Source: a virus
Reading direction: 5' to 3' (one strand)
Virus record (IMG/VR): IMGVR_UViG_3300014325_000035
Span: 1-32,372 of that record
DNA length: 32,372 bases
Shown: positions 1-1,640 of the stretch, in pieces
Layout of the letters: each line of letters opens with the position of its first letter
How positions within the stretch are numbered: position 1 is the first letter of the stretch
Program-made: the position numbers and the translations under genes
Notes under the pieces: generated by a model
Databases searched by the model: none
Told to the model about the DNA's origin: nothing
What the model saw: the letters and a program-made list of their open reading frames with translations, nothing else

Positions 1-135
1 CGTGCGAACCTTACCCGTGCGAACCTTACCCGTGCGAACCTTACCCGTGCGGACCTTACCGATGCGGACCTTACCGATGCGGACCTTACCGATGCGGACC
101 TTACCGATGCGGACCTTACCCGTGCGAACCTTACC
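1..135 (+). repeat. 15-bp tandem repeat coding for pentapeptides
   Basis: Nine consecutive 15-bp units fill 1-135 and may extend left of the window. Two unit types occur: CGTGCGAACCTTACC (units 1-3 and 9) and GATGCGGACCTTACC (units 5-8), with unit 4 a hybrid. Units of one type are identical even at third codon positions, which indicates recent expansion by slippage or unequal exchange. The repeat is in frame with the protein. Confidence 0.95.
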
Positions 136-441
136 GTATTTAAGAATGATTTATGGGCAAAACTGTTAATTCAAAAGAATGAGATAGCAGGGCTAAAGGA
201 AAAATTATTAGCGGGTCAAATTGATGGTTCTTGTTACGAAGGTTCGTGCTGTTGCTTCGTTGGCACCCTAGCCAAAGTAAAGGGAGTAAAATATAATGAA
301 TTGGATGTTGTGGCAAATTCAACTTCTCCAGTTGAAAGATGGTTTACACAAATAAGCCCAGGAATGACTCCCGAAAATTCGGGTGTATCCAAATTAACTT
401 TTGAGTGGATTGAAGAATTTGAATTGCACCTGAGTAAGTAA
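1..441 (+). CDS. Pentapeptide-repeat protein, 5' end outside window
   Basis: The frame is open from base 1 to a TAA at 439-441, so the start lies upstream of the window. The first 45 residues are nine pentapeptides of the form R/D-A-N/D-L-T, the A(D/N)LxX pattern of right-handed quadrilateral beta-helix proteins. After them come about 100 residues of ordinary sequence with a Cys-rich patch (SCYEGSCCCF) at about residues 77-86. The non-repeat part looks like a separate C-terminal domain that I do not recognise. Pentapeptide-repeat proteins are known as DNA mimics and gyrase protectors, but phage copies are mostly uncharacterised, so no function is assigned. The stop codon abuts the ATG of the next gene at 442, which suggests one transcript. 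Confidence 0.85.
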   Translation, partial: RANLTRANLTRANLTRADLTDADLTDADLTDADLTDADLTRANLTVFKNDLWAKLLIQKNEIAGLKEKLLAGQIDGSCYEGSCCCFVGTLAKVKGVKYNELDVVANSTSPVERWFTQISPGMTPENSGVSKLTFEWIEEFELHLSK

Positions 442-750
442 ATGCTTCGACAGACCGACATATTCCAGGACTTTGTGCACGACACCGAGAAGTTGCCAGA
501 AACGCAAAAGATACTGGACGACTACAGGTTTGAGTTGGCAGAATCAACGAAAAGAGTGTACGACTTTCTTATGAGCGGAAACGAGGGTACTGTACACGAT
601 ATGAAGGCGGATCGCTCACGCTTGTCGGATCTAAAAAGGGCTGGCTTCCAGTTTTCATTCAAGATGCAAGGGAGATTTAAGGTTTGGTTCTGCACCCCTG
701 CTCAGGTAGAGTTCAATAAAAAAAGGATGGAGGAGTTAAAACAAAAATGA
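442..750 (+). CDS. Small winged-helix-like phage protein
   Basis: A 102-residue protein that starts directly after the preceding stop and overlaps the methyltransferase by four bases (ATGA). The C-terminal half has a basic helix with the segment DRSRLSDLKRAGF at about residues 57-69, followed by a beta-rich stretch ending WFCTP. That pattern resembles small phage helix-turn-helix proteins in which a helix reading RLxDLKxxG precedes a wing. The N-terminal half is acidic and helical. Function is not established. Tight coupling to the methyltransferase suggests co-expression, perhaps as a regulator. Confidence 0.75.
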   Translation: MLRQTDIFQDFVHDTEKLPETQKILDDYRFELAESTKRVYDFLMSGNEGTVHDMKADRSRLSDLKRAGFQFSFKMQGRFKVWFCTPAQVEFNKKRMEELKQK

Positions 751-1640
751 GGCACGGCAGTGTGTTTACTGGGATAGGTGGATTTGATCTAGCCGCTGAA
801 TGGATGGGGTGGGAGAACGTATTTAACTGCGAAATAAACGCAAAAAGCAGAGAAAAATTAAAATATTATTGGCCAAATGCCATAAGCTATGAAGACATCA
901 AAAAGACAGATTTCACTATTTGGAGAGGAAAACTTGACCTTATTACAGGAGGGGATCCATGCCAGCCAAGCTCAATTGCTGGCCTGGGAAAGGGCACAAA
1001 AGATGACCGTTACCTCTGGCCAGAGATGTTTCGAGCGGCTACCGAATCGCAGTGTCCTTGGATCGTTAACGAAAATGTTATTGGAACAGTTTCCAACGGC
1101 ATCCTTGACATCAAGATTAATGACTTGGAAAATAGTGGCTACTCCTGGCAGGCGTTTAATATACCAGCTGAAGCGGTCGGGGCACTACATCAACGGGAGC
1201 GAATATGGCTTATCGGTTATAACCCCAACTTCAACCGAAATAATAAAATCTCCGGAGAAGTACAAACTTCAAAAACAGAAGAACGATCATTGGCGACCAA
1301 ACAACACCAAATTTACAAGTTTAGGGAGCCAGTTAATTTATGGTCTTTTGATACCAACTCCAACGCACCACGATGGCAAGAACACAACGACGACGCCGAG
1401 TATGGAACATTACCGAACAATGATTGGGAAAGCTCCTACTTTGGTTTCGGCCCTAATCCACATGGGAATATCACCAGGTACTCTATTGAATCCGGAATTA
1501 TGGGAGTGCTTAATGGGCTACCCGAGGGGATGGACTATACCGAACGGAACCAACGTATCAAAGAGCTTGGTAACTCCATCGTCCCGCAAGTAGCCTTGCA
1601 AATATTTAAAGCAATATCTCAATACGAACTCAACCAATAA
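747..1640 (+). CDS. dcm: DNA (cytosine-5-)-methyltransferase
   Basis: A 297-residue C5-cytosine DNA methyltransferase. Motif I (VFTGIGGFDLA) is at residues 6-16, motif IV with the catalytic cysteine (GGDPCQPSS, Cys72) at 68-76, motif VI ENV at 109-111, motif VIII QRER at 149-152, and motif X (ELGNSIVPQVALQIF) near 271-285. The protein is short for the family because the target-recognition region (about 160-255) is compact. The expected role is to methylate phage DNA with SAM and so protect it from host restriction. It overlaps the preceding gene by ATGA and lies 6 nt before a second methyltransferase. A long second ORF occupies another frame of the same DNA (889-1593). The catalytic assignment is secure; the recognised sequence cannot be read from the gene. 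Confidence 0.95.
   Translation: MRHGSVFTGIGGFDLAAEWMGWENVFNCEINAKSREKLKYYWPNAISYEDIKKTDFTIWRGKLDLITGGDPCQPSSIAGLGKGTKDDRYLWPEMFRAATESQCPWIVNENVIGTVSNGILDIKINDLENSGYSWQAFNIPAEAVGALHQRERIWLIGYNPNFNRNNKISGEVQTSKTEERSLATKQHQIYKFREPVNLWSFDTNSNAPRWQEHNDDAEYGTLPNNDWESSYFGFGPNPHGNITRYSIESGIMGVLNGLPEGMDYTERNQRIKELGNSIVPQVALQIFKAISQYELNQ
889..1593 (+). CDS. Overlapping +1-frame ORF inside the methyltransferase gene
   Basis: A 234-codon ORF starts at ATG 889 and runs without a stop through most of the methyltransferase gene in another frame. The product does not look like a random shadow. It begins MKTSKRQISLFGEE, has a central TWKIVATPGRRLIYQL, and ends with LNPELWECLMGYPRGWT near residues 200-216. 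I recall these patterns from many Bacteroidota and phage database proteins lying in the same relation to dcm-type genes, but I could not check this. The DNA for MGYPRGWT also encodes NGLPEGMD of the methyltransferase, so both frames carry conserved-looking motifs. No catalytic motif is visible and no function is known. Either it is a true overlapping gene or a frame kept open by constraints on the main one. Confidence 0.45.
   Translation: MKTSKRQISLFGEENLTLLQEGIHASQAQLLAWERAQKMTVTSGQRCFERLPNRSVLGSLTKMLLEQFPTASLTSRLMTWKIVATPGRRLIYQLKRSGHYINGSEYGLSVITPTSTEIIKSPEKYKLQKQKNDHWRPNNTKFTSLGSQLIYGLLIPTPTHHDGKNTTTTPSMEHYRTMIGKAPTLVSALIHMGISPGTLLNPELWECLMGYPRGWTIPNGTNVSKSLVTPSSRK

Follow-up and report, generated by a model that had tools for sequence, protein, structure and literature searches.

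A tailed-phage locus that probably encodes a two-subunit C5-cytosine DNA methyltransferase in two overlapping reading frames

Described two-subunit enzymes and the anatomy of the phage locus

M.EcoHK31I is a bacterial methyltransferase that forms part of a restriction-modification system and has YGGCCR as its target. Its small subunit is reportedly read from a second frame inside the large-subunit gene. A 1995 paper by Lee, Kam and Shaw (Nucleic Acids Res 23:103) states in its title that two proteins are needed for M.EcoHK31I methylation in vitro. The large subunit of M.EcoHK31I carries motifs I-VIII and X and the small subunit motif IX; in M.AquI, motifs I-VIII are located in the large subunit and motifs IX-X in the small one (PMC3404938). 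A two-subunit enzyme in overlapping frames is already known, as a rare arrangement described for a bacterial enzyme. What is added here is how widely it occurs among phages, how the two frames are used reciprocally, and a series of single-chain, split and nested forms. A literature search limited to openly licensed papers revealed no previous description of the overlap for phages.

The stretch of DNA analysed, referred to as the window (32,372 nucleotides), is a tailed-phage contig carrying genes for terminase, portal and head proteins. Two overlapping genes within it, alpha and beta, very probably encode a two-subunit C5-cytosine DNA methyltransferase with the architecture of M.EcoHK31I. The features of the locus are as follows.

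747..1640, + strand: alpha, C5-cytosine methyltransferase large subunit of 297 aa, with motifs I-VIII and X and without motif IX
759..785, + strand: alpha motif I (SVFTGIGGF); columns F7, G9, G11 and G12 invariant in 73 homologues
948..974, + strand: alpha motif IV (GGDPCQPSS) with the catalytic Pro-Cys-Gln; P71, C72 and Q73 invariant in 73 homologues
1071..1079, + strand: alpha motif VI (ENV); E109 and N110 invariant in 73 homologues
1182..1208, + strand: alpha motif VIII (ALHQRERIW); H148, R150 and R152 invariant in 73 homologues
1257..1535, + strand: alpha residues 171-263, predicted to be disordered (AF2 pLDDT mostly 34-49), lying over the recognition half of beta
1566..1595, + strand: alpha motif X (LGNSIVPQVA); G275, N276 and P280 invariant in 73 homologues
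889..1593, + strand: beta, nested gene of 234 aa in the +1 frame of alpha, with an ATG start; assigned as recognition/motif IX subunit
889..891, + strand: beta start ATG, built from alpha Tyr(TAT)-Glu(GAA)
1123..1170, + strand: beta block TWKIVATPGRRLIYQL over the alpha catalytic domain; columns L78, W80 and L94 nearly invariant in the beta alignment
1486..1536, + strand: beta motif IX-like block LNPELWECLMGYPRGWT, the best-conserved part of beta, in-frame with motifs I-VIII in single-chain relatives

Alpha matched PF00145 (E=1.9e-30, confined to residues 2-206) and phrog_363 (E=6e-54), and motifs I, IV (Pro-Cys-Gln), VI (Glu-Asn-Val), VIII and X of the PF00145 family were all present. Motif IX and the recognition domain were absent from the alpha chain, which is therefore not a single-chain C5-methyltransferase. 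TIGR00675 (dcm) matched residues 5-182 only, with a score below the family cut-off. AF2 modelled the catalytic core and the motif X helices of alpha with confidence, and the model resembles the single-chain enzyme M.HhaI (Foldseek E of 5e-13 over about 165 columns). An alignment of alpha to M.HhaI ends after motif VIII. The predicted core is like that of M.HhaI, but alpha has neither recognition domain nor motif IX.

A sequence-only reading had noticed a 234-codon open reading frame without a stop in another frame of the C5-methyltransferase gene. We confirmed it as positions 889-1593 in the +1 frame of 747-1640, starting between motifs I and IV and ending inside motif X. The three peptide blocks that had been singled out are all there, namely MKTSKRQISLFGEE, which is the N-terminal peptide of beta from 889, and the two blocks listed above. 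The proposed dual coding of NGLPEGMD (1512-1535) and MGYPRGWT (1513-1536), one base apart, is exact. That reading had also stated that database proteins share these blocks inside dcm-type genes, and this proved correct: beta matched the PHROG family phrog_1008 (E=1.6e-12), as did all of the 74 beta sequences tested, and a nested CDS is already annotated in Paenibacillus phage Shelly (as 'g55 internal gene') and in Escherichia phage K1ind1. The family phrog_1008, termed 'DNA methyltransferase', includes g56 of Shelly and ORF28 of K1ind1; the members examined were labelled methyltransferase or hypothetical protein only, with no subunit role or overlap analysis.

By motif anatomy the locus is like M.EcoHK31I, since alpha carries motifs I-VIII and X without IX, beta carries an IX-like block, and beta is nested in the +1 frame of alpha, as the small subunit of M.EcoHK31I is said to be in an alternative frame. 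It differs in that M.EcoHK31I is bacterial whereas alpha and beta lie in a tailed phage, and in that the recognition domain of M.EcoHK31I has been predicted in its large subunit, whereas here both selection and single-chain relatives put it in beta. M.AquI shares with the locus that it is a naturally split C5-methyltransferase with motif IX and part of the recognition region outside the catalytic subunit; motif X, however, lies in its small subunit and here in alpha, so that the locus is not of M.AquI type.

Two features underlie the motif IX assignment in beta, namely the location of the block, which stands after motif VIII and before motif X, and its pattern L.P...E.L.G.P..W. When beta, or the beta half of single-chain relatives, was compared with Pfam and PDB profiles, no relative was recognised, and the N-terminal half of beta has no known relative outside its own family. 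The AF2 model of beta alone was of low confidence (mean pLDDT of 57.5) and gave no match in a fold search. Such a poor model would be expected for a subunit whose folding depends on its partner, yet it is no proof of this.

Conservation and selection in the two frames

In order to analyse the second frame, we assembled 84 homologous loci, of which 80 viral loci were collected by alpha alone, whereas three phage records and one contig were found with beta. The +1 frame was open over the same region in all 84 (174-326 codons), and the +2 frame of the same homologues contained 13-34 stops. The window +1 frame is open for 235 codons, whereas none of 1000 synonymous shuffles reached this length (mean of 79, maximum of 214). 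When codons were shuffled gene by gene, the length of the +1 frame had P<=0.001 in 75 of 85 genes, the window included; this null leaves each gene's protein and codon usage intact but does not retain the preferences of neighbouring codons. With the alpha alignment held fixed, similarity in the beta frame exceeded the synonymous-shuffle null by 3.5-11 s.d., even at alpha identities of 33-37%. Similarity in the +2 frame also rose above its null, but by less, as expected because the +1 frame constrains the DNA.

Synonymous conservation was then determined in 42 non-overlapping homologue pairs. Conservation at alpha-silent third positions was 0.64-0.65 outside the overlap on both sides, 0.73 in the catalytic part of the overlap (P=1e-5) and 0.89 in its C-terminal part (P=3e-11), with a peak of 0.95 at the motif IX block and a value of 0.57 immediately past it. 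Beta-silent sites were conserved at 0.87 over the catalytic part and at 0.64, equal to background, over the C-terminal part, which identifies beta as the constrained protein there. Over the recognition half of beta, no amino-acid constraint on alpha was detectable beyond staying free of stops. In that C-terminal part, the alpha frame had no stop in any of the 85 genes (4.4 per gene expected when beta codons were shuffled), and over the catalytic part the beta frame had none in 84 of 85 (2.4 per gene expected); the missing stops in both parts indicate that selection keeps both frames open.

The window and its nearest relative (L085) gave the same picture, with identities of 0.54 for beta and 0.68 for alpha in the catalytic part and of 0.77 and 0.48, respectively, in the C-terminal part; over whole proteins, beta was 64.5% and alpha 57.5% identical. 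Comparative analysis thus showed that both frames are conserved and under selection, and, judged by where substitutions fall, alpha dominates the constraint in the catalytic part and beta in the TRD/IX part.

These data bear on the reading that the second frame is untranslated and only a by-product of how alpha is conserved, together with codon bias and composition. Some similarity does arise in this way, as alpha conservation alone yielded a null beta-frame identity of 0.17-0.29, and after shuffling the +1 frame still had fewer stops than the +2 frame. We nevertheless consider such a by-product extremely improbable, given the excess of beta similarity over the shuffle null, the C-terminal part where beta-silent sites change at the background rate and alpha-silent sites are frozen, and the single-chain relatives, in which the +1 frame is mostly not kept open. 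Openness of the second frame in relatives, depressed synonymous change and protein conservation above the null all went the way the sequence-only reading had proposed for a widespread overlapping gene.

A pseudogene or a sequencing error was rejected, both frames being intact and constrained. In the shortened copy at L098 (2501-2968; Flavobacteriaceae) both genes are truncated, alpha to 156 codons and beta to 82, which suggests joint decay. At L110 (1297-2222; uncultured phage Deep1-GF2-KM23-C739) the N-terminus of alpha is out of frame with the remaining alpha, by a real frameshift or an assembly error, and the annotation covers beta and no more than a short piece of alpha.

Start of the nested gene and arrangements in relatives

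An ATG in the beta frame at offset 120-190 was found in 85 of 85 genes, compared with 63% expected. Where alpha has Tyr-Glu or Tyr-Ala at the beta start, Tyr was encoded by TAT in 30 of 32 counted cases, producing an ATG at offset 142 (P=5e-8 against 48% TAT overall), and where it has Tyr-Asn/Asp/His-Asp, the middle codon was nearly always xAT before G, producing an ATG at offset 145; these counts are somewhat inflated by kinship among the sequences. Shine-Dalgarno-like sequences precede the beta start in several phages of hosts that use them (GGAG in K1ind1, 6 nt upstream of the start, AAGG in C72C1 and AGGA in Firecracker). No obvious Shine-Dalgarno sequence was observed upstream of the window beta start. 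Bacteroidota are known to use such sequences rarely, and this absence fits the host that we infer for the window phage from its relatives, a member of the Bacteroidota.

We also searched all loci with profiles built from the catalytic part of alpha, from its motif X, from beta and from the LNPxFVxEMMGFPxxW block. This yielded 136 nested, 6 split and 7 single-frame loci (6 distinct), numbers that do not amount to a census, the loci being partly redundant and gathered by similarity. In the single-frame loci (L123, L124, L125, L128, L129 and L148/L149) the beta-type block lies in the open reading frame of motifs I-VIII; L148 encodes one chain of 401 aa in the order I-VIII, IX-like block, X. In the split enzymes of mycobacteriophages Shaka (gp77/gp76) and Firecracker (gp6/gp5), which are M.AquI-like in appearance, alpha stops after motif VIII and the beta frame (gp76 and gp5) continues via the block into motif X (IIGNGV). 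From the block being in-frame in single-chain relatives and running into motif X in the mycobacteriophages, the C-terminal half of beta was shown, at the level of sequence comparison, to correspond to the recognition and motif IX (TRD/IX) half of single-chain relatives. Two mycobacteriophage pairs (L113, 1149-2244; L114, 898-1843) are annotated as two DNA methylases, with beta starting inside alpha, and resemble split enzymes of M.AquI type.

Every nested (136) and split (6) locus had its two frames offset by +1, and in the split forms a single +1 shift would rebuild the full enzyme. Both observations agree with programmed +1 ribosomal frameshifting, by which the catalytic part of alpha would be fused to the TRD/IX part in the beta frame as one long chain, with no separate beta start. 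This seems very unlikely to us, since the beta frame already runs open for some 110 codons ahead of any point where a shift would help, its ATG is preserved through compensating codon choices, Shine-Dalgarno-like sequences occur before it in several phages, and nested forms would require a second shift to get to motif X.

Beta might also be translated but regulate or inhibit the methyltransferase as a separate protein, or act as an anti-restriction factor, instead of being a catalytic subunit. Its N-terminal half stands apart from all other families searched, which would suit such a role. With the C-terminal half of beta sitting in-frame inside single-chain methyltransferases, and with alpha devoid of the recognition/motif IX half, we regard this role as very unlikely. 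The suggestion of the sequence-only reading that the second frame encodes a partner of the methyltransferase is thus supported. Its function, which had been called unknown, is another matter, as beta is the counterpart of the enzyme's own recognition/motif IX half, and M.EcoHK31I divides its motifs alike.

For the two-subunit enzyme we infer separate translation of beta, heterodimer formation, recognition by beta and a protective role. Alpha would fold as the catalytic large domain, with cofactor binding, the Pro-Cys-Gln nucleophile and the motif X helix. The part of alpha that overlies the recognition region would serve as a stop-free linker that takes the chain to motif X. Beta, initiated at its own ATG within alpha, would provide the small domain with target recognition and motif IX. 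The two would associate and methylate a specific site, and this methylation would probably shield phage DNA from host restriction. What had appeared as one annotated methyltransferase gene with a puzzling second frame would then become a two-subunit enzyme of phages of several bacterial phyla. Many of the records examined retain one frame only, so that half of the enzyme, by inference the target-choosing half, would be missing there.

In single-frame genes, openness of the +1 frame was not above the null, with the exceptions of L129 (GC of 0.72) and, weakly, L148. At 994-1395, L148 has a 134-codon +1 open reading frame that resembles the N-terminal half of beta (P about 0.01); it may be a remnant of a beta N-terminus inherited from a nested ancestor, or an intermediate on the way to nesting. 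We give an even chance to a history in which this lineage of phage C5-methyltransferases passed from single-chain through split to nested forms by reciprocal overprinting, the N-terminal half of beta having been created over the catalytic domain and the alpha linker over the recognition domain, where it would be retained only for being free of stops. If so, phages may generally resort to storing both halves compactly in a single gene, which would let the recognition half evolve as a protein of its own. The locus also offers a well-powered long same-strand overlap, for which the single-chain and split relatives are natural controls in studying the origin of overlapping genes.

Spread and neighbouring genes

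The nested layout was found in records of phages of Paenibacillus, Lacticaseibacillus, Bacteroides, Escherichia, Salmonella, Acinetobacter, Microbacterium and Sulfitobacter, and in contigs assigned to Bacteroidota, Bacillota and Nitrospirales. Matches to phrog_1008 turned up in only 2 of 198 Bacteroidota genomes, so the nested system is probably mostly phage-borne.

In the window, a second methyltransferase-like gene (1647-2126, + strand; phrog_954, motif DPPHL) lies directly downstream of alpha, so that two methyltransferases adjoin, and no restriction gene adjoining them was identified. Positions 1-441 (+ strand), where the window start truncates the gene, encode the C-terminal portion of a protein of pentapeptide repeats, with nine RANLT/DADLT-type units in 15-nt repeats.
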